Positions 24,640-34,982 of a stretch of DNA of 64,000 bases are shown here, piece by piece; positions within the stretch are counted from its first letter, which is position 1, and each line of letters starts with the position of its first letter. The stretch lies in NCBI RefSeq assembly GCF_014610845.1, contig NZ_JABTCG010000005.1, positions 372,001-436,000 on the forward strand, written 5' to 3'. A program made the translations under genes and the position numbers. The notes under the pieces are model-generated. The model made no database searches and was not told where the DNA came from. It saw nothing but the letters and a program-made list of their open reading frames with translations. The stretch is from Maribacter arenosus. Its GTDB lineage: Bacteria; Bacteroidota; Bacteroidia; Flavobacteriales; Flavobacteriaceae.

Positions 24640-27600
24640 ATGAGAACAGTAAGCCATCTTAGAGTTCCTATCTGCAATTTTTTATTGCTACTAATTTGCT
24701 ATGGCAGTATTTTTTCTCAAGAAATTGACCCAAGAATCAGATACTATTCTTTGGAGCACGGACTTTCACAGGTAACAATAAATGACCTTATCCAAGATAA
24801 ATCAGGATTTATATGGCTTGGCACACAAGATGGCCTTAATAGGTTCGATGGGCAAAAATTCAGACATTTCAAGTACAGTGAATTAGATTCCACATCAATA
24901 TCTTGTAATTCAATTACCAAATTGTTGGCCGATCCCAATGGAAACGTCTGGGTTGGTACCTTGGATGACGGACTTAATTATTATGATGCCAATCTCGATA
25001 TATTCCATAGAATAAAGTTGAGGGCCAAAAAAAATGAAAGTATTACTGGTTTGACGATTGAAGAAAATGGGATTCTCTGGGTAACCACAAGAAATTCGGG
25101 ACTGTACAGCTTACAGCCAACTAAGACCGGGTCCTTTTATCAGGAAAATTTTCTAAATGATAAAGCCTTAAGCGCCTTGACCTTAGATTCACAACAAAAT
25201 TTATGGATTGGAAGTTTGCAAGGAGCGGTATACAAATGGAACTTGCAAATCTCCAAAACCCCTCCAAAAACACCTGAGGTTCGGATTCAAGGAAATATTC
25301 TGGCTTTTTATAAAACCACAAATGGACTTCTCATAGGTACTGATATCGGACTTTATATCTATGATTTGAACCGTAAGTCAATTATGCCCTTTAACCTTAA
25401 CGAAAATGGTGTAAGCCAAACAAGGCATATCACAGAATTTTTGGATGATGATGGTTCAAAGGTTTGGATAGGAACCGGTTCTGGTCTCTACCTCTTTGAT
25501 TGGCGCTCTAAAAAAGTATTGAAAAAAATCGCATACAATGAGGATAATACCCTTGGTCTCAGTAACAATACCGTACAATCCCTTTTACGAATTGAAGCCA
25601 ATCAAATTTTTGTAGGGACCGCCAATAATTTAAATCTTCTAGATTTCAAAGAACCTTATTTTAAGAATATTTCCAAAAACAAACGAGGGGATCATTTATT
25701 GAATGACAATGTCGTTTTCTCGATCCTGAAAGATGAAAACCAATTATGGATTGGAACTTCGGATGGTGGGCTGAATTTGATACAAGAAGGAAAAAACTAC
25801 TATTTCAAGGAAGATCAAAACAATGCTTTGAGTATTTCAGGAAATGTGGTTCGCGAAATTGTAAAAGACCATAAAAACCAAAGATTGTGGTTAGCAACAA
25901 CACGCGGTTTAAGTATGTTGGATTTAAAGTCATTTGACCCTGAAAATCCAAAATTCAAGGTGTTTAAACATGACCCAAATAATCCGGAAACCATTAATAA
26001 CGATTTTATCAAAGGTATTACCTTGGATAACGGAGGAAATGTTTGGGGGGCAACTTTTGGGCATGGTATTTTTAGACTAACCCTGAGCGGTAGTAATGAT
26101 GTTAAAGTAAAAAGATTTAAAAATGAAAGATATAATCCTAATTCATTGATCAATGATTTTACCCAATGTATTCTCGCCGATGCCGATGACAACATTTGGA
26201 TAGGATCTCAAGGGGGATTGACCCGACTTAGCAATATCGCAATTAATCTGGATCAGCCTGTTTTTACCAATTATGTGGAGGATGTAAATGATGACACCTC
26301 AATTTCGGCCAATTCAGTGTACGATATCACCATTGATTCCAATGAAAAAATGTGGTTAGCAACTCACTATGGATTGAATTTATATTTAGGTGATAACAAA
26401 TTCCAATCATGGGTAAATCCAGAACAGAAAATGAATGGAATTATATATTGTATTCAACATGATGATTCTGATAAGCTGTGGTTGGGAACCACAGAGGGCA
26501 TAGTAAAATTCGATCCAGTTTTGGACGACTTTAGATATTATGGTGTAAATGATGGTATTCAAAGTAAGGAATTTGATATACATGCTAAGTATTTGGACGA
26601 CGTAGGTACAGTTTATTTAGGGGGTATAGCCGGGGTAACCTATTTTCAACCAAAATATTTAGAAAAAATTGACCGCCCGGAATCGCTGTATTTTTCACAA
26701 TTACGGGTGAGAGATGAAATTGTAAAGACCAACAATGCGACAAAACCTTGGCTTACAAACTCAATAATCAATACAGGGAACTTACAGTTTAGGCATGATG
26801 AATTCCCTTTTTATCTTGACTTTTCCAGTATAGATTATCGGCTGAACAAGGATGTTTCCTATGCCTATAAGCTTTTACCAATCGATGCCGACTGGAACTT
26901 TTTAAAAGAACCGGAAATCCAATTTTTAAACCTTCCTTCTGGCAGTTACACCTTGCAGGTCAACGGTTTCTCGAGAGGAGAGGAATGGGAACAAACACCC
27001 TTACAAATGGATCTTGAGATTCTACCCCCTTGGTGGGCAACTTGGTGGGCCTATCTTCTTTACGCCGGTATTACGATCGCTTTTGCAGACAGATTCTACC
27101 GCTTTCAGCTCTCAAAACGATTGGCCATAGCTGAAAGCCTTCGCCTAAAAGAGGTAAATGAACTAAAAAATAGTTTATATGATAATATTACGCATGAATT
27201 TAGAACTCCACTTACTGTTATACTTGGGATGACAGATTCACTGGAAAGTGAATTACGGACCAAAACAAATCCACCCATAAAAAATTCGGTTGAAATGATT
27301 CGTAGAAATGGCAGAAAACTGTTATCCTTAGTGAATGAGATGCTGGATCTTTCCAAACTTGAAAGTGGTCATATGGAAACGAATCTCATACAAATCAACG
27401 TAGTGCCCTTTATTAAATATTTAGGGGAAAGTTTTCATTCATTTGCCCAGGAAGATGACATACATTTCACAGTGTATTCTGAAATTGATGAATTAATGAT
27501 GGATGTGGATTCGCAGAAATTATCAACTATCATATCAAACTTACTCTCTAATGCCATAAAATTTACGCCCCCGCTTGGAAAAATCGTGCTTCATATCCAT

Positions 27601-28707
27601 AATGAGAATAATACAAATTTGATTATCAAGGTCAGCGATACTGGAGTGGGAATTTCCGAAGAAGAATTACCATATATATTCAATCGTTTTTATCAAGCCG
27701 ATGCTACAATAACCAGAAGAGGCGAGGGTACGGGTATAGGACTAGCCTTAACCAAAGAATTGGTAAACGTGCTCGGGGGCCAAATTTCAGTGACCAGTAC
27801 ACCTAACGAGGGTAGTGTATTCAAGGTAACGCTACCCATTACCCATAATGCACCATACACAAATTTGGAATCAACGAATCCAAATCCAGAAAACGCGCCG
27901 AATTTAGAGTTCCTAGATGTCCAAAAACGGGAAAATGTAGTTCCTTTCGATAAGCCTGAATTACCATTGGTACTCATAATTGAAGATAATAAGGATGTCG
28001 CCTATTATCTAAATCAATGTTTAATGGGCACCTATAATACAATACATGCCATAAATGGCATTTTAGGTCTCGAAATGGCATTCGAACACATTCCGGATAT
28101 TATTATTTCTGATGTCATGATGCCTGGTAAAGATGGTTATGAGGTTTGTAGCATGCTGAAAAAGGATGAACGTACCGACCATATTCCCATAGTACTCTTA
28201 ACCGCCAAGGCAACTTCCAAGGATCGTGTCTTTGGCCTTACAAAAGGTGCGGATGCTTATTTGGCAAAACCATTCCAAAAAGAGGAATTATTCACACGAT
28301 TGGAACAATTGCTATTCTTGAGGAAAAAATTGATTACTAAATTCCAACAAGGTCAAGTCTCTAAAGTAATTGCAAAGCAACCCATAAATGCGGAAACAAA
28401 ATTTATCACCAAAGTCATTGATCTTATACATGAAGATTTGGATGATTCGAGTTTTGGCAGTTCTGAACTAAGCGCTAAACTTGGGCTAAGTGAATCACAG
28501 GTCTATCGAAAACTAAAAGCAATCACCGGAAAATCCACTGCCGTTTTTATAAGAACTATCCGTTTGGAAGATGCGAAAGAGCAATTACAGACCACCGATA
28601 AAACCGTTTCTGAAATAGCCTATGCAGTAGGGTTTAACGATCCATCCTGGTTTAGCAGGGCTTTTAAGGAAGAATATGGCCACCCTCCCAGTGATAGACA
28701 TAAATAA
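24640..28707 (+). CDS. Hybrid two-component system (propeller sensor, kinase, receiver, AraC HTH)
   Basis: This 1355-residue protein carries a whole signalling path in one chain. After a signal peptide come about fourteen Reg_prop blades (W[IVL]GTxxGLxxxD type), enough for two seven-bladed periplasmic propellers, then a Y_Y_Y domain (about 725-790) and a membrane segment near residue 800. Inside the cell come HisKA with H852 in NITHEFRTPL, HATPase_c (NLLSNAIKF, DTGVGI, GEGTGIGLAL), a receiver with acceptor D1158 in ISDVMMPG, and an AraC-type HTH at about 1255-1355. Bacteroidota HTCS proteins usually sense glycan fragments and switch on adjacent utilisation loci, but here the next genes encode sulfur-type proteins and no SusC/SusD pair is present. 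Confidence 0.95.
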   Translation: MRTVSHLRVPICNFLLLLICYGSIFSQEIDPRIRYYSLEHGLSQVTINDLIQDKSGFIWLGTQDGLNRFDGQKFRHFKYSELDSTSISCNSITKLLADPNGNVWVGTLDDGLNYYDANLDIFHRIKLRAKKNESITGLTIEENGILWVTTRNSGLYSLQPTKTGSFYQENFLNDKALSALTLDSQQNLWIGSLQGAVYKWNLQISKTPPKTPEVRIQGNILAFYKTTNGLLIGTDIGLYIYDLNRKSIMPFNLNENGVSQTRHITEFLDDDGSKVWIGTGSGLYLFDWRSKKVLKKIAYNEDNTLGLSNNTVQSLLRIEANQIFVGTANNLNLLDFKEPYFKNISKNKRGDHLLNDNVVFSILKDENQLWIGTSDGGLNLIQEGKNYYFKEDQNNALSISGNVVREIVKDHKNQRLWLATTRGLSMLDLKSFDPENPKFKVFKHDPNNPETINNDFIKGITLDNGGNVWGATFGHGIFRLTLSGSNDVKVKRFKNERYNPNSLINDFTQCILADADDNIWIGSQGGLTRLSNIAINLDQPVFTNYVEDVNDDTSISANSVYDITIDSNEKMWLATHYGLNLYLGDNKFQSWVNPEQKMNGIIYCIQHDDSDKLWLGTTEGIVKFDPVLDDFRYYGVNDGIQSKEFDIHAKYLDDVGTVYLGGIAGVTYFQPKYLEKIDRPESLYFSQLRVRDEIVKTNNATKPWLTNSIINTGNLQFRHDEFPFYLDFSSIDYRLNKDVSYAYKLLPIDADWNFLKEPEIQFLNLPSGSYTLQVNGFSRGEEWEQTPLQMDLEILPPWWATWWAYLLYAGITIAFADRFYRFQLSKRLAIAESLRLKEVNELKNSLYDNITHEFRTPLTVILGMTDSLESELRTKTNPPIKNSVEMIRRNGRKLLSLVNEMLDLSKLESGHMETNLIQINVVPFIKYLGESFHSFAQEDDIHFTVYSEIDELMMDVDSQKLSTIISNLLSNAIKFTPPLGKIVLHIHNENNTNLIIKVSDTGVGISEEELPYIFNRFYQADATITRRGEGTGIGLALTKELVNVLGGQISVTSTPNEGSVFKVTLPITHNAPYTNLESTNPNPENAPNLEFLDVQKRENVVPFDKPELPLVLIIEDNKDVAYYLNQCLMGTYNTIHAINGILGLEMAFEHIPDIIISDVMMPGKDGYEVCSMLKKDERTDHIPIVLLTAKATSKDRVFGLTKGADAYLAKPFQKEELFTRLEQLLFLRKKLITKFQQGQVSKVIAKQPINAETKFITKVIDLIHEDLDDSSFGSSELSAKLGLSESQVYRKLKAITGKSTAVFIRTIRLEDAKEQLQTTDKTVSEIAYAVGFNDPSWFSRAFKEEYGHPPSDRHK

Positions 28708-28891: not shown

Positions 28892-29929
28892 ATGAAAGAT
28901 GATACCATTTATCTTATCAAAAAATTAAGACTTCAAGTCACAGTATGTTGTAGCTTGATAGTGTTGGTCGGTATAACTACCCTACTGTTTTATTTTGATG
29001 TGTTTGCCAAAGATCCAATACCCTTAGTGGAAATTTCACTGGGCCCGGTAGAATCGAAATACGATGTTTCATTATTGGACGATTCCGCTGAAAATGCAGC
29101 ATTGAAATTTGGACATGAACTTTTTATAAATACACCCAAATACCTTGGTCCGGACAATGGCAACCCAGACATGGTCTATGCCGGCAATAGATTGGCATGT
29201 AACAATTGCCATTTAAAGTCGGGTACCAAGCCCTTTTCGGCTCCCCTCATTGGGATCATAAAAAGATTTCCCCAGTTCAGGGGGAGGGAAAACAAAATAG
29301 GGACCATCGAGGAACGGATCAATGGCTGTATGGAACGCAGTATGAACGGTAGGGTGTTGCCACCCGATGGAAAAGAAATGCAAGCCTTTATCACCTACCT
29401 GAACTGGCTAAGTCGGTTTGCGCCAGAAGGCGGAAAGGTAGCTGGACAAGGGTTCGTTAAAGTTGAAATTCCGAACAGAAAAGTTGATCTTATTCATGGG
29501 CAACAGGTTTTTGAAAAGAACTGCATCGTATGTCACGGCAAAAATGGGCAAGGGGTTAAAACATCGGATAGTTTCACCTATCAATACCCACCCCTTTGGG
29601 GTACCGATTCCTATAATAATGGGGCAGGAATGACCCGTGTAATCACAGCGGCCCAGTTCATTAAGGCCAATATGCCTTTTGGAACCACTTATGATGCCCC
29701 CGTACTTTCAGATGAAGAAGCATATGATGTGGCCGGCTATATCAACCAGCAACAACGACCGGAGAAACCGAACCGGGAAGCGGATTTTCCGGATCTGACC
29801 AAAAAACCAGTATCCACCCCTTATGGGCCCTATGCCGATACCTTCCCTATTGAGCAACACCGTATTGGTCCTTTTCAACCTATTATGGATTTTTATAAAA
29901 GCGAGTACAATATTGTTAAGTCTAAGTAG
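28892..29929 (+). CDS. TsdA-like dihaem c-type cytochrome (putative thiosulfate dehydrogenase)
   Basis: A 345-residue membrane-anchored periplasmic protein (hydrophobic segment about residues 14-38). Haem site 1 is C103-N-N-C106-H107 and haem site 2 is C211-I-V-C214-H215. Between them RINGCMERSMNG places C146 39 residues after H107; TsdA and SoxA proteins have a Cys axial ligand to the catalytic haem in this setting. KANMPFG near 258-264 offers a Lys or Met ligand for haem 2. TsdA interconverts thiosulfate and tetrathionate (EC 1.8.2.2). Two DsrE-like genes and a TauE-type exporter gene downstream support a sulfur role. It could instead be a non-enzymatic electron carrier. Confidence 0.75.
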   Translation: MKDDTIYLIKKLRLQVTVCCSLIVLVGITTLLFYFDVFAKDPIPLVEISLGPVESKYDVSLLDDSAENAALKFGHELFINTPKYLGPDNGNPDMVYAGNRLACNNCHLKSGTKPFSAPLIGIIKRFPQFRGRENKIGTIEERINGCMERSMNGRVLPPDGKEMQAFITYLNWLSRFAPEGGKVAGQGFVKVEIPNRKVDLIHGQQVFEKNCIVCHGKNGQGVKTSDSFTYQYPPLWGTDSYNNGAGMTRVITAAQFIKANMPFGTTYDAPVLSDEEAYDVAGYINQQQRPEKPNREADFPDLTKKPVSTPYGPYADTFPIEQHRIGPFQPIMDFYKSEYNIVKSK

Positions 29930-30107
29930 GGCCAAGCGTTAAGAAAATGTCGGGTGGACATTTTTAGCAAAGGAGACAGCCGGGGCGTTGGCCTTATAAA
30001 CAAGAATGTTTAATGGAGAAATCGAAGATATAAATGCCTTTTAAAACAATCATGTAGGATGTGAATAATTACTTCTTGCAGAATATTAATCAAATAAATA
30101 TATACGG

Positions 30108-30782
30108 ATGAAAACAAAGACAAATTCAAGAAGAAGCTTTATGGGTGCCATGATGCTTGGTGCCACGGCAAGTACCCTTTCAGTACTTGGCAATCCGGCC
30201 TTTGCCGGTATGACCGATTTCAGTGAAACGCAAATGAACGAAGCCGATGATTGGTTTAAGCAGATAAAAGGAAAACACCGTATCGTTTATGATGGATCCT
30301 ATCCGCACAAGGGGTTTCCAATAATTTGGAACTGGGCGTTCTATTTATCAAACAATGAAACTGGATCCCCAGACGATGATATTACGGCCATGACCGTTTT
30401 ACGTCATGATGGAATTCCATTTGCTTTTAATTCTTCCCTTTGGAAAAAATATCCCTTGGGAGAGGTTTTCCATGTAAAAAAGGCAGACGGGACCACCTAT
30501 GACCGTAATCCGTATTACGAACCCCAAGAAGGTGATTTTCCACTTCCTGTGATCCAAGGCATAAAGGATATGCAAGCTCGAGGCGCCATGTTCTGTGTCT
30601 GCAATTTGGCCATTTCGGTATACAGTGGTGCCGTGGCCCAGCAAATGGGATTAGACCCAAAGGAAACCTATGAAGAATGGATAGCAGCCGTGATGCCGGG
30701 AATTCAAGTGGTACCCTCAGGGGTTTGGGCACTGGGTAGAGCCCAGGAAAATGGTTGCGGTTACATCTTTGCGGGAGAGTAA
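30108..30782 (+). CDS. Tat-exported DsrE-like protein
   Basis: The 224-residue product starts with a twin-arginine signal (SRRSFMG at 8-14, then an Ala/Gly-rich hydrophobic stretch ending NPAFAG). The mature region has a first half with HRIVYDGSYPHKGFPIIWNW and a C-terminal half with MFCVCNLAISV and IQVVPSGVWALGRAQENGCGYI. The end matches the neighbouring DsrE-family protein (VRAVPDGILEIIQKQGEGWGYI), and C165 of the CVC pair (C163/C165) falls where that protein has its single Cys. DsrE proteins relay persulfide sulfur. A Tat route suggests the protein folds, perhaps with a cofactor, before export. Confidence 0.65.
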   Translation: MKTKTNSRRSFMGAMMLGATASTLSVLGNPAFAGMTDFSETQMNEADDWFKQIKGKHRIVYDGSYPHKGFPIIWNWAFYLSNNETGSPDDDITAMTVLRHDGIPFAFNSSLWKKYPLGEVFHVKKADGTTYDRNPYYEPQEGDFPLPVIQGIKDMQARGAMFCVCNLAISVYSGAVAQQMGLDPKETYEEWIAAVMPGIQVVPSGVWALGRAQENGCGYIFAGE

Positions 30783-30858
30783 GCAGCCCCGAAGTTTCTG
30801 GGGAAGAAGTACTCGGAAATACGTAATTAGTTCGCAGTAATCTTTAAATAAACACATT

Positions 30859-31272
30859 ATGAGAAAAGTTTTGAATATAGTATTGGCATGCCTCTTTACC
30901 ACACTGGCATCTGCCCAAGAAAATCCGGTAAAAATCGTATTCGATGTCACAAGTAGCAATACGGGGGTTCACGAATCCACCATGCGCCATGTAAAAATGA
31001 TGTCGAATGCCTACCCCGATTCAATGTTCGAGGTGGTCATGTATAGCGGAGCCTATGAAATGGTAGTGAAGGACAAGTCCGCTGTATCGGATGAAATGGA
31101 AGCCCTGGCCAAGAACAACAACGTAGATTTTGTGGTTTGCCAGGCATCGTTGAATAGGCATGAAATCGATGTTTCCCAGTTGGTTGCCGGAGTTAGGGCC
31201 GTACCAGACGGTATTCTGGAAATCATTCAAAAACAGGGCGAAGGCTGGGGCTACATTAAGGAAGGACAATAA
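30859..31272 (+). CDS. Sec-exported DsrE family protein
   Basis: A 137-residue protein with a Sec signal peptide (VLACLFTTLASAQ). The mature 118 residues follow the DsrE/DsrF/YchN fold: KIVFDVTSSN, a helix, FEVVMYSGAYEMVVKD, a helix, VDFVVCQASLNRHEID with the single conserved-position Cys (C94), and AVPDGILEIIQKQGEGWGYI. Canonical DsrEFH and TusBCD proteins transfer sulfur in the cytoplasm, so an exported member is unusual in setting although exported DsrE-like proteins are known in Bacteroidota. It is 76 bases after the Tat-exported paralogue and 84 before the exporter gene. Confidence 0.8.
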   Translation: MRKVLNIVLACLFTTLASAQENPVKIVFDVTSSNTGVHESTMRHVKMMSNAYPDSMFEVVMYSGAYEMVVKDKSAVSDEMEALAKNNNVDFVVCQASLNRHEIDVSQLVAGVRAVPDGILEIIQKQGEGWGYIKEGQ

Positions 31273-31356
31273 TAGACCATATTCTTGGAAGTATAGTGTC
31301 CCTTCGCAAATACGCGAAGGATCAAACCAAGGGCACATTCAATTTTAAATACTAAA

Positions 31357-32157
31357 ATGGAAACCATAGAGATTTTTGGTTATTTAGGGGCCTTAATGGT
31401 CGGCCTTGTATTGGGTCTAATGGGTAGTGGGGGTTCATTGATCGCAATCCCCATTTTTACCTACTTATTCCATATCAGTCCTATTACCACAACGGCGTAT
31501 TCGCTTTTCGTCGTGGGTACTTCCTCTACAATTGGGGCCTTTAGAAACTGGGAAAAGGGATTGGTTGATTTTAGGATTGCCATTGTATTTGCCATCCCAG
31601 CTTTTATTGCCGTATATGTAGTGCGGAAATATATACTTCCCATAATTCCAATCGAGATAATCACAATAGAGGATTTTATGGTTACCAAGGATATGGCGAT
31701 TATGGTGTTTTTAGCCCTTACCATGCTATTGTGTTCTCTTTCAATGCTACGGAAAAGGAAAGCGTTAAGTGATCATAGCCAAATTAATCGGTACAATTAT
31801 CCTTTGATACTATTGCAGGGCATTCTAATCGGTTTATTTACCGGTGTTGTTGGGATCGGTGGAGGTTTCTTGATCATTCCCACCTTGGTTTTATTGGTAA
31901 AACTACCCATGAAGAAAGCAGTAGCAACTTCATTGTTTATTATCGCACTAAAATCTTTGATCGGATTTATGGGCGATGTAGGGAATTTGGAGATAAACTG
32001 GGACTTTTTAATAGGGTTTACGGTAGTCTCCACCTTAGGCATTTTCTTGGGCATCTATCTTTCTTCCTTTATTAAGGGGGAAAAGCTTAAAACTTATTTT
32101 GGGTGGTTGTTATTGGTCCTCTCCGTCGGTATTATTTACAAGGAAGTTTTTACCTAA
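31357..32157 (+). CDS. TauE/SafE family sulfite/sulfonate exporter
   Basis: A 266-residue polytopic membrane protein with about eight hydrophobic segments in two homologous halves. The first half opens with GLVLGLMGSGGSLIAIPIF and the second with GLFTGVVGIGGGFLIIPTL, the GxxxGxGGGxxxxP repeats that define TauE/SafE (PF01925). The family exports sulfite, sulfoacetate or related organic anions and includes thiosulfate- and sulfite-linked members. Within this run it would remove sulfite or an oxidised product, or bring in a sulfur anion; direction is inference. Confidence 0.9.
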   Translation: METIEIFGYLGALMVGLVLGLMGSGGSLIAIPIFTYLFHISPITTTAYSLFVVGTSSTIGAFRNWEKGLVDFRIAIVFAIPAFIAVYVVRKYILPIIPIEIITIEDFMVTKDMAIMVFLALTMLLCSLSMLRKRKALSDHSQINRYNYPLILLQGILIGLFTGVVGIGGGFLIIPTLVLLVKLPMKKAVATSLFIIALKSLIGFMGDVGNLEINWDFLIGFTVVSTLGIFLGIYLSSFIKGEKLKTYFGWLLLVLSVGIIYKEVFT

Positions 32158-32242
32158 ATAAAAGATATCGAAAAAAACACTTTTAAAATACAACTTGAAC
32201 AATAATTGAATTTTTATACGAATAACAAATAAGAATAAAAAA

Positions 32243-32545
32243 ATGATTCGACCAGAAGATTTAACCGAAGAACAAAATATGTATGTAATTGAAAGAGCTA
32301 TTCCGGGGGCTGGTGAACTGTCCCAGGAACAGTTAAAAGGTATTTCACAAACCTCATGTGGGGTATTAAATGAAATGGGTCCTGAGATTCAGTGGATACA
32401 TAGCTATGTCACAAGTGATAAGATTTATTGTGTATATCATGCCCCAAATGAAGAAATGGTACGTGAACACGCAAAACAAGGGGGATTTCCAGCAAATTCC
32501 GTAAGCCAAGTGGCTACTATTATTGACCCTTCAACGGCTGAATAA
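32243..32545 (+). CDS. DUF4242 (SCO4226-like) protein
   Basis: A 100-residue cytoplasmic protein with the DUF4242 ferredoxin-like plan: MYVIERAIPGAGELSQEQL, a Cys-containing helix (SQTSCGVLNEMG), IQWIHSYVTSDKIYCVYHAP and EEMVREHAKQGGFPANSV. Relatives include the Streptomyces nickel-binding protein SCO4226; His and Cys residues that could bind metal are present (H49-like, C and the VREHAK His). Function in this operon is unknown. It is 85 bases after the exporter and 73 before the cupin on the same strand. Confidence 0.75.
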   Translation: MIRPEDLTEEQNMYVIERAIPGAGELSQEQLKGISQTSCGVLNEMGPEIQWIHSYVTSDKIYCVYHAPNEEMVREHAKQGGFPANSVSQVATIIDPSTAE

Positions 32546-32618
32546 GCTGTAACCAAAATTTAGGTTTGGTGGTATACCTACCACTGTAATTAATTGTTTA
32601 ACTTAAAAAAATAAAATC

Positions 32619-32996
32619 ATGAAAATCAAAAAAGAAGATCTTCCAATCACAATGCAGGCAGGAAATATGATCATGCGAGCACAAGCAGATTGTGGTGGCA
32701 TAACCCTAGGGTACAATGAACTACCAGCAGGCACCGATTTTACCCCTTTGTTAAAGGGATTGAATCACGACAGTTGCCATTGCCCGCATTGGGGCTACGT
32801 TATAGATGGTAAAATGTTGATCATTTACGATGACGGAAAAGAAGAATTGGTCACTAAAGGTGATGTCTACTATTGGCCCGCAGGCCATACGGGCATTGTC
32901 AAAGAAGATTTGAAACTTCTAGAATTCAGTCCAACAAAGGAGTTGAACGAAGTACTTACCCATGTGGGTAAAAGAATGGCCGAATTAGCAGGTTAA
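32619..32996 (+). CDS. Cupin-fold protein with Cys/His-rich loop
   Basis: The 125-residue protein has a single cupin barrel: LGYNELPAGTDF, the loop NHDSCHCPHWGYVIDGKMLI, EELVTKGDVYYWPAGHTGIV and LKLLEFSP. The usual cupin motif 1 (GxHxH) is replaced by a loop rich in Cys and His (HDSCHCPHWG), and motif 2 has PAGHTG with one His. Thiol-dioxygenase-like or metal-sensing roles can be imagined but are not shown. It is the last gene before the terminator at 33082. Confidence 0.75.
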   Translation: MKIKKEDLPITMQAGNMIMRAQADCGGITLGYNELPAGTDFTPLLKGLNHDSCHCPHWGYVIDGKMLIIYDDGKEELVTKGDVYYWPAGHTGIVKEDLKLLEFSPTKELNEVLTHVGKRMAELAG

Positions 32997-33081
32997 AGAC
33001 TGGAAGTAAACCATTGATGTTCGTTTTATGCGGGAAAAGGGAATAACACCGGGATAAAACAAGAAAGGGTATTTTCAAAAT

Positions 33082-33121
33082 AATCGGTTATAAACCAATT
33101 GATACTATAGCCGATTTTTTT
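33082..33121 (+). terminator. Rho-independent terminator of the sulfur gene run
   Basis: AATCGGTTATA (33082-33092) pairs with TATAGCCGATT (33106-33116) through 11 bases with one G-U, followed by a run of T to 33121. It closes the block that begins with the TsdA-like gene. Confidence 0.8.
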
Positions 33122-33197: not shown

Positions 33198-34694
33198 ATG
33201 ACAAACCACAGGGATACACCCATTGAAATTCAAAAAGAGGATTTTAAAAAAATCGGTTATCAATTGATCGATACGATAGCTGATTTCTTTGACACCATTG
33301 ACGATTATCCAGTAACAAAAGGGGAATCTCCTATACAATTACAAAAGATTTTAGGCACTTCATCCTTTCCAGAGCAAGCTACCCCTGCCGAGGAAATCAT
33401 TATAAGAGCTTCCGATCTATTGTTGAATCATTCCTTGTTCAATGGTCACCCCAGATTCATGGGGTATATTACCTCCTCTCCTGCCCCAATTGGTGTTTTG
33501 GCAGATTTAATGGCTGCAGCCATAAACCAGAATGTTGGCGCGCAAGTATTAAGTCCCATGGCTACCGAAATTGAAAAACAGACCGTAAAATGGTTGGCAG
33601 AATTCATCGGGGTTTCCCCCAATTACGGGGGAATATTGGTGAGTGGCGGCAATATGGCCAATTTTACCGCATTTCTGGCCGCAAGAACGGCCAAAGCACC
33701 AATGAATATCAAAGAAGAAGGGCTTGCAGCAAATCAGTCCAAACTGATTGCCTATTGTTCTAAAACTACCCATACATGGGTAGAAAAAGCGGCAATTCTC
33801 TGCGGACATGGCTCCAAACAAACCCGTTGGATACCTACCGATGCGTTCAATAAAATAGATACCGTTATTTTAGAAAAAACCATAAAAGAAGATTTAAAAA
33901 ATGGACACCAACCCTTTATGGTCGTTGGTACGGCTGGCGATGTTAGTACTGGTGTGGTAGATAATCTAAAAGAAATCGCTGCAATCTGCAAAACCTATGA
34001 CCTTTGGTTTCATATCGATGGGGCCTATGGGGTTCCAGCAGCGATAATCCCTGAATTGAAAGCTACATTTGAAGGACTTAAGGATGCCGATTCCATTGCA
34101 CTTGACCCACATAAATGGTTGTACGCCCCTCTTGAAGCGGGCTGTACGCTGGTGAAAAAACCACAACATCTTTTAGATGCCTACAGTTCGCATCCCGAAT
34201 ATTATCATTTCAATAAAACAGAAGATTTAAAAGCACAAAATTATTATGAATACGGCCTTCAAAATTCCCGTGGTTTCAGGGCATTGAAAGTTTGGATGGC
34301 TTTTCAGCAAGTAGGAAGAAAAGGATATGCGAAAATGATTCGTGAAGATATTGAATTATCCGAATTGTTGTTTAAACTGGCCAACAAGCATAATGAATTG
34401 GAAGCGGTATCCCAAAATTTAAGCATTACTACTTTTAGATATGTCCCTACGGATGTTCCCCACGATGATAAAAACAGCATGACCTACCTAAATACATTGA
34501 ATGAAGCATTGCTGCAGGCTTTGGAATTAGGTGGCGAGGTTTTCTTTTCCAATGCTATTGTAAAAGATAGTTATTGTCTCAGAAGTTGCATTGTGAATTT
34601 TAGAACCTCAAAAAAGGATATTGAGGAGATTATAGAAATCGTGGTTCGTGAGGGTCGTATCATGCACAAAAAACTACATACCAATCAATTATGA
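33198..34694 (+). CDS. PLP-dependent group II decarboxylase (aromatic-amino-acid/glutamate type)
   Basis: A 498-residue group II decarboxylase. The substrate-side helix HPRFMGYITSSPAPIG and the cofactor pocket are intact: SGGNMANFTAFLAAR, VGTAGDVSTGVVDNL, WFHIDGAYG (Asp for the pyridine nitrogen) and the Schiff-base Lys K306 in DPHKWLYAPLEAG. The family decarboxylates aromatic L-amino acids, glutamate, diaminobutyrate or cysteine-sulfinate-type substrates. The last is attractive beside the sulfur genes but no residue I can point to proves it. Its TGA overlaps the ATG of the next, broken, gene (ATGA), implying former translational coupling. Confidence 0.9.
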   Translation: MTNHRDTPIEIQKEDFKKIGYQLIDTIADFFDTIDDYPVTKGESPIQLQKILGTSSFPEQATPAEEIIIRASDLLLNHSLFNGHPRFMGYITSSPAPIGVLADLMAAAINQNVGAQVLSPMATEIEKQTVKWLAEFIGVSPNYGGILVSGGNMANFTAFLAARTAKAPMNIKEEGLAANQSKLIAYCSKTTHTWVEKAAILCGHGSKQTRWIPTDAFNKIDTVILEKTIKEDLKNGHQPFMVVGTAGDVSTGVVDNLKEIAAICKTYDLWFHIDGAYGVPAAIIPELKATFEGLKDADSIALDPHKWLYAPLEAGCTLVKKPQHLLDAYSSHPEYYHFNKTEDLKAQNYYEYGLQNSRGFRALKVWMAFQQVGRKGYAKMIREDIELSELLFKLANKHNELEAVSQNLSITTFRYVPTDVPHDDKNSMTYLNTLNEALLQALELGGEVFFSNAIVKDSYCLRSCIVNFRTSKKDIEEIIEIVVREGRIMHKKLHTNQL

Positions 34695-34982
34695 CCAACA
34701 AGACCAAAGAAAGAGTAAAATCGATTGATCCTCTTAGGGGGCTGGTCATGATGAATGGAATATCACTTCCGGTGACAAAAAACACATATACAATTTGGCC
34801 CGTAAAAGCTATTTTGCCGCAGTTGAACAAGGGGATGGCGGGGTTCAGGATTTCATTCATACCCCGAATTTTATTCTGGTCGATACGAAAAAACGAATTC
34901 GGGAGTATATAATGGTACCAACGATAAGGAAATTGAACGTATCACACAGGATATTAACCTGCTTCTACTTGAAAAGGATTAA
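34691..34982 (+). pseudogene. Deletion fusion: start of a DUF1624/HGSNAT-like gene joined to the end of a SCO1/SenC gene
   Basis: From the ATG at 34691 the first 20 codons read KERVKSIDPLRGLVMM, the typical opening of heparan-alpha-glucosaminide N-acetyltransferase-like (DUF1624/DUF5009) membrane proteins. From about 34750 the coding signal jumps to another frame and reads DEWNITSGDKKHIYNLARKS, then DFIHTPNFILVDTKKRIR, the unmistakable C-terminal third of a SCO1/SenC copper chaperone. After RIR a single base is missing (GGG where GGGG would keep frame); in the next frame the tail continues GVYNGTNDKEIERITQDINL and stops at 34980-34982. Everything between the two gene parts is gone. A 73-residue frame from 34691 exists but is a chance reading. 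Confidence 0.75.

Follow-up and report, generated by a model that had tools for sequence, protein, structure and literature searches.

A tsdA–tat224–dsrE gene core in Maribacter arenosus and other Flavobacteriaceae, probably encoding a periplasmic machine of a TsdA-like cytochrome and two exported DsrE-like proteins

Introduction

The described systems closest to the locus reported here are the TsdA cytochromes, the DsrE sulfur carriers and the Acidithiobacillus thiosulfate dehydrogenase AFE_0042. Cys123 of Allochromatium vinosum TsdA bears an S-thiosulfonate intermediate, and substitutions of Arg109, Arg119 and Ser127 disturb catalysis (PMC4423706). In Campylobacter jejuni TsdA, which reduces tetrathionate in vivo, Asn254 replaces the haem-ligating Lys208 of A. 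vinosum (PMC5146829). One DsrE protein from Metallosphaera formed a Cys-S-thiosulfonate upon reaction with tetrathionate (PMC4175335). AFE_0042 carries the annotation 'Tat pathway signal sequence domain protein' (PMC2754497), and the structure and mechanism of thiosulfate dehydrogenases of this type were called open by a 2019 review (PMC6335251). Some marine flavobacteria oxidise thiosulfate (PMC12345210). Here we describe a locus of Maribacter arenosus, located in a stretch of 64,000 nucleotides of contig NZ_JABTCG010000005.1 (hereafter, the window), whose genes tsdA, tat224 and dsrE encode a TsdA-like cytochrome, a protein exported by twin-arginine translocation (Tat) with a predicted DsrE fold, and a DsrE family protein exported by the general secretory (Sec) route. 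Literature searches, in which few subscription journals were covered, gave no title or abstract opening that describes this gene set.

Results and Discussion

The conserved unit of the locus is the three-gene core of tsdA (28892..29929, 345 amino acids), tat224 (30108..30782, 224 amino acids) and dsrE (30859..31272, 137 amino acids), all on the forward strand, whose products probably form one periplasmic machine. The three genes are genomically linked. The samples studied were 149 genomes of the family, a draw of 395 genomes from the phylum, and 42 loci from one genome-contig search. Within the family, tat224 was present in 17 of the 149 genomes, with tsdA beside it in 17/17 and the coordinates of tsdA, tat224 and dsrE together in 17/17. 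The cytochrome gene was detected in 25 of the 149, all 17 tat224 genomes included, and dsrE at E < 1e-30 in exactly the same 17, four more genomes giving matches at 7e-6 to 2e-4. Fisher tests of co-occurrence with tat224 over the 149 genomes gave p values of 1e-16 (tsdA) and 1e-22 (dsrE), kinship being ignored. None of the three genes was detected in G032, the second representative of the window's genus among the 149.

Eight genomes of the phylum draw carried tat224, the window's own included. Among the 42 loci, tsdA was present in 39 and the remaining three (L051, L057 and L058) have a TsdA homologue elsewhere in the genome; dsrE was present in 40, being absent from L058, while L060 stops at a contig edge. 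Twelve tat224 genomes were searched again, namely the seven that the phylum draw had added, those of L051, L057, L058 and L049, and G098 (also one of the 17). TsdA was recovered in 12/12 and dsrE in 9/12; six of the twelve belong to other families of the same class, and four have no kinship label.

A total of 81 loci were compared (the window, 41 named and 39 fetched; L039 and L099 come from one genome). L060 was omitted from this comparison, from the neighbour survey, from the order and gap counts and from the TsdA residue rows. Both tsdA and tat224 were present in 60 of the 81 loci, one of them a duplicate. The gene order was tsdA-tat224-dsrE in 56 of these, dsrE-tat224-tsdA in one, the trio with tat224 inverted in its middle in one, and tat224-tsdA without dsrE in two. 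The gap between tsdA and tat224 was 5–35 nucleotides in 45 of the 60 loci versus 181 in the window, values extrapolated from translated matches with the stop codon counted. The open reading frame (ORF) upstream of tsdA, surveyed in 57 loci, was tat224 in three; the remaining 54 fell into 24 kinds, some of the single ones perhaps spurious, and 17 of the 54 represented one RuvB-like, Muricauda-type site. Since the ORF preceding tsdA differs so widely, the core stays while its surroundings change.

The product of tsdA matched the Pfam SoxA/TsdA cytochrome domain PF21342 (1.7e-9) and a cytochrome c domain, and an N-terminal membrane anchor was read from its sequence. Its closest solved relative was PDB 4wqc (E 9.6e-51), followed by three more thiosulfate dehydrogenase sequences at about 1e-50, by 5lo9, a 'Cytochrome C' (2.7e-40) which we take to be a TsdA fusion, and then by a nitrite reductase (4.2e-6). 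Residue conservation was examined in 73 aligned rows, window included and one row a duplicate. The two CxxCH haem sites (C103/C106/H107 and C211/C214/H215) and the haem-1 Cys146 between them were kept in 73/73 rows, as were Arg132, Arg142 and Ser150 and the pair Asn260-Met261; Lys258 was kept in 71/73. By alignment to the solved relatives, Arg132, Arg142, Ser150 and Cys146 are equivalent to Arg109, Arg119, Ser127 and Cys123 of A. vinosum. Thus, on residue evidence, the cytochrome is TsdA-like, with every tested catalytic and ligand residue kept, as the initial annotation had proposed from two haem sites with a cysteine between them. It resembles the TsdA of A. vinosum and C. jejuni in its two haems, the cysteine ligation of haem 1, the Arg/Arg/Ser set and the methionine at haem 2, but differs from both in the N-terminal anchor and in being conservedly paired with two DsrE-fold proteins that bear export signals. 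A partial tsdA match covering residues 239–345 only was observed at L118:6180-6488 (G006:C2), a full copy being present elsewhere in the same genome.

The Lys-x-Asn-Met stretch at haem 2 matches Lys252, Asn254 and Met255 of C. jejuni TsdA, with which the window protein shares the asparagine before the haem-2 methionine. Because this stretch is of the type of an in vivo tetrathionate reductase, the direction of the reaction is not readable from the sequence. TsdA might, for respiration or detoxification, reduce tetrathionate, the DsrE-like proteins then stripping thiosulfonate adducts or buffering the thiosulfate released, an alternative that we regard as unlikely. The only lifestyle evidence against it is that such flavobacteria are mostly aerobic. 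In its favour, Asn260, Met261 and Lys258 match residues of the C. jejuni tetrathionate reductase (PMC5146829); however, TsdA enzymes are reversible, and single residues do not simply set their direction, according to the same study.

TsdA also occurs outside the core. Eight of the 25 TsdA-bearing family genomes lack tat224, and in three of these eight, as well as at four of the five TsdA loci remote from tat224 in tat224 genomes, the gene stands beside that of a protein of about 448 amino acids with, by eye, the look of an outer-membrane barrel. In a quick tree of 57 TsdA rows, with long branches flagged and 16 rows of the Muricauda group excluded beforehand, the core-linked TsdA of the family clustered together (support 80, not starred), and two tat224-free rows with G052 formed a minor branch next to the remaining 38. 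The SoxB model gave matches in 123 of the 149 genomes, none above the cut-off. Matches with E < 1e-70 were obtained in ten genomes: four of the eight with TsdA and without tat224, none of the 17 with tat224, and six without TsdA. The first two figures differ at p 0.0055, a comparison picked post hoc with kinship ignored and to be taken only as a lead, and the same applies to PF00174 (molybdenum sulfite-oxidase type), present in 9/17 tat224 genomes versus 28/132 others (p 0.013). A gene for a SoxB-like protein, below the cut-off, is divergent to tsdA at G007:C17:41140-43972, in a genome without tat224.

The product of tat224 bears a twin-arginine RRxF signal, read from the sequence. A twin-arginine motif was found in 64/64 ORF-called copies (58 by the RRx[FL] pattern and six as RRxF by eye; L053, L054 and L060 excluded, L059 counted by its first half), and two TAT models matched 14/18 and 13/18 relatives. 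No Pfam family matched the window protein, PF02635 was matched by 0/18 relatives at E 0.1, comparison of the sequence or its profile with solved structures gave nothing meaningful, and a search of plasmids returned no match. An AlphaFold2 model built on 37 sequences reached a predicted local distance difference test value of 80.7 and a predicted template modelling score of 0.78. Its top Foldseek matches in the PDB, 1l1s and 2pd2 (probability 1.00, E 3-4e-3, target template modelling scores 0.74 and 0.67), are also matched at sequence level by the dsrE product. The protein is thus predicted from the model to have a DsrE fold, despite the lack of a DsrE family profile match. A direct profile comparison of tat224 with dsrE was weak (68.8% probability over only 32 columns). 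Cys165 did not vary in either of two alignments (18 and 37 sequences) and lies at a strand end before a helix in the model.

The sole NCBIfam match of the window protein was a weak one, to NF052225 'thiosulfate dehydrogenase' (E 0.00046, 19.6 bits), aligned over model positions 135–257 of 259, i.e., the C-terminal half. NF052225 detected 17 of the 18 relatives (best 3.5e-8), and of its four matches in 61 genomes three were tat224, in the window genome, G155 and G179. From size and name, which fit, we infer that NF052225 represents the Acidithiobacillus AFE_0042 enzyme family. This apparent distant kinship to a known thiosulfate dehydrogenase family, detectable by sequence, was overlooked by the initial annotation. 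Like AFE_0042, tat224 has a Tat signal, a size of about 25 kDa and distant homology over the C-terminal half of NF052225; unlike it, tat224 scores far under the family cut-off and adjoins a TsdA cytochrome, whereas AFE_0042 clusters with doxDA and rhodanese genes (PMC6335251).

One alternative is a two-part enzyme, in which tat224 itself would be the thiosulfate dehydrogenase and the TsdA-type cytochrome its electron acceptor, and we consider it improbable. The distant homology to NF052225 speaks for it, as does the fact that no tat224 genome or locus among those checked was without TsdA. Nevertheless, TsdA alone holds a complete known catalytic site, the NF052225 match is confined to the C-terminal half of the model, and the eight TsdA genomes without tat224 also argue against such a dependence. 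The AFE_0042 enzyme is, to our knowledge, haem-free. The TsdA enzymes studied in the cited papers work without such a partner.

Some deviating tat224 copies were observed. A second paralogue, about 40% identical, is present at L087:6716-7414 (G098:C4), with Cys165 kept and the first cysteine of a CxC pair missing; no tsdA or dsrE match was found within 9.1 kb around it. Around 8001–8666 of L053 and L059, tat224 is interrupted, by an in-frame stop in L053 and a frame change in L059, which is metagenome-derived; assembly error is possible. The G179 copy is intact.

The third core protein matched the DsrE family PF02635 (1e-7, above the cut-off) and PDB 2pd2 (9.5e-11) and 1l1s (8.2e-7). A Sec-like signal was read from its sequence, and Cys94 was kept in 53/53 sequences. 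The initial annotation had placed in this locus two DsrE-fold proteins with different export signals; this holds because tat224, without a Pfam match, has the DsrE fold in its predicted structure. Both proteins share the fold and a single conserved cysteine with the DsrE/DsrEFH and DsrE3A carriers, but differ from them in bearing export signals, and no TusA, Hdr or Dsr gene was found among the annotated neighbours in the window, in contrast to those systems.

The reading that we favour, with about an even chance of being right, is a periplasmic thiosulfate/tetrathionate module in which TsdA carries out the interconversion and the DsrE-like proteins serve as carriers; we infer the substrates, the carrier role, the direction and the cargo of the TauE/SafE permease encoded next to the core. 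Membrane-anchored TsdA would turn two molecules of thiosulfate into one of tetrathionate, or the reverse, by way of an S-thiosulfonate on the haem-ligating Cys146, and haem 2 would relay the electrons into or out of the respiratory chain. With tetrathionate or TsdA as donor, the tat224 protein (by Cys165) and DsrE (by Cys94) would accept a thiosulfonate or sulfane group and pass it onward, and TauE, where present, may clear or move a small sulfur anion, e.g., sulfite or thiosulfate. Exported DsrE-like carriers serving TsdA are preferred because the Cys-S-thiosulfonate chemistry of TsdA and the thiosulfonate chemistry of the Metallosphaera DsrE protein meet in this operon.

Several results weigh against this reading. 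One of the two DsrE proteins of Metallosphaera tested was unreactive with anything offered (PMC4175335). The literature search found no biochemistry on any member of the gene set, no downstream acceptor was recognised in the cluster, and dsrE was not found in three of the twelve tat224 genomes searched again. The direction may be the reverse, as the haem-2 environment resembles that of the Campylobacter enzyme. With regard to tat224, the Foldseek E-values were modest, none of them being ≤ 0.001; the curated NF052225 cut-off of 300 bits was exceeded in 0/61 genomes, the window protein scoring 19.6 bits; and this model also matched an unrelated 668-amino-acid frame and one of 14 control genomes.

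In the window, the core is followed by three further genes. The ORF list confirmed six forward-strand ORFs in 28892–32996, with intergenic gaps of 178, 76, 84, 85 and 73 nucleotides, as initially annotated. The identities then assigned to the last three products were likewise borne out by Pfam: tauE (31357..32157, +, 266 amino acids) encodes a TauE/SafE permease (PF01925, 1.9e-39), and the two accessory genes a DUF4242/SCO4226-like protein (32243..32545, +, 100 amino acids; PF14026, 8e-30) and a small cupin (32619..32996, +, 125 amino acids; PF07883, 8.5e-6, just below the curated cut-off). No useful solved relative was found for DUF4242 and only weak ones for the cupin.

The initial suggestion of a conserved neighbourhood stands for the three core genes, but the six-gene order as a unit was rejected: besides the window, only L019 (Maribacter polysiphoniae) among the loci examined has all six in order, with DUF4242 broken. 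The permease gene lies directly 3' of dsrE in 15 distinct loci, the window included, and is thus frequent, not universal; it shows a full-length family match, like the TauE/SafE exporters of sulfite-type anions, but it adjoins the core in a minority of loci. DUF4242 follows tauE in the window, L019, L020, L042 and L055. Beside the core, the window and L042 alone have it intact; it seems dispensable, being interrupted at L019:10046-10344, L020:10045-10275 and L055:6510-6807; a further copy is present in L059. The cupin gene directly adjoins the set in just two loci, the window and L019, and lies 1.5 to 5 kb off in L035, L050 and L112 (split).

The intrinsic terminator at 33082..33121 (+) has an 11-bp stem and a T run. 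Its hairpin (33082–33116) was as strong as initially described, with -10.6 kcal/mol, a z score of -4.3 and 0/200 shuffles equally stable; its loop of 13 nucleotides left it unlisted in a hairpin pattern scan limited to loops of 3–8 nucleotides. It need not bound the neighbourhood, because a pyridoxal-phosphate-dependent decarboxylase gene (33198..34694, +), beginning about 200 nucleotides past the cupin stop, follows the cluster here and in three other distinct loci (L019, L039, which equals L099, and L055). The encoded protein is aromatic-amino-acid-decarboxylase-like (PF00282, 1.4e-66; PDB 4obu, 1.5e-72), its best solved relatives being aromatic amino acid and related decarboxylases. A cysteine-sulfinate enzyme is disfavoured, since cysteine sulfinate decarboxylases come last (28th and 29th) among its 29 solved relatives. 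Downstream, about 20 N-terminal residues of an HGSNAT-type acyltransferase gene are left at 34691–34753 (ORF 34691–34912); this piece is a decayed or truncated remnant of a gene that is intact after the decarboxylase in L039 and L055.

Upstream, a hybrid two-component regulator (24640..28707, +; ORF list), with a propeller-type sensor, kinase, receiver and AraC-type output assigned by eye, is a candidate regulator of the cluster, and L042, L044 and L051 have a near-full-length relative of it directly upstream. A Bacteroidetes-type promoter motif had two matches in the whole window and none near the cluster, versus four expected by chance. In other loci, e.g., L023, L029 and L035, a run of DUF4242-AraC fusion proteins stands upstream of the core; two to four consecutive regulators lie 5' of it in several genera (L023:4471-6668, L035:1791-6165 and similar). 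In the one regulator scanned, L023:4471-5583, DUF4242 was fused to an AraC helix-turn-helix, which suggests that DUF4242 is a ligand-sensing domain; the lone window gene could then, as a guess, be a sensor part or a remnant.

The variety of these regulators and that of the downstream genes, which are acyl-CoA-dehydrogenase-like (seven loci), pyrroloquinoline-quinone-dehydrogenase-like or for the decarboxylase, suggest that substrates differ between genomes. They would fit a repurposed TsdA whose sulfur substrate is a different one, e.g., a persulfide, a sulfinate or an organic thiosulfonate. We judge this very unlikely, as all tested TsdA active-site residues are kept, the core is constant while the downstream genes change, and the decarboxylase is most like aromatic amino acid decarboxylases and not a sulfur enzyme.

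Conclusions

The periplasmic thiosulfate/tetrathionate module remains our preferred reading of the core. A bolder proposal, to which we assign a low probability, is that the AFE_0042-type family would itself be DsrE-fold, with a TsdA-type dihaem cytochrome as its natural partner, at least in Bacteroidota, thiosulfate being loaded on the cysteine and the cytochrome taking the electrons. If true, this partnership would merge two separately discovered tetrathionate routes into one mechanism and explain an isolated Acidithiobacillus enzyme without a known physiological acceptor. For the AFE_0042-type thiosulfate dehydrogenases, tat224 points to a fold, by prediction, to a cysteine that does not vary and to a candidate partner for redox reactions, and the tightly linked core offers a direct handle on flavobacterial thiosulfate oxidation.

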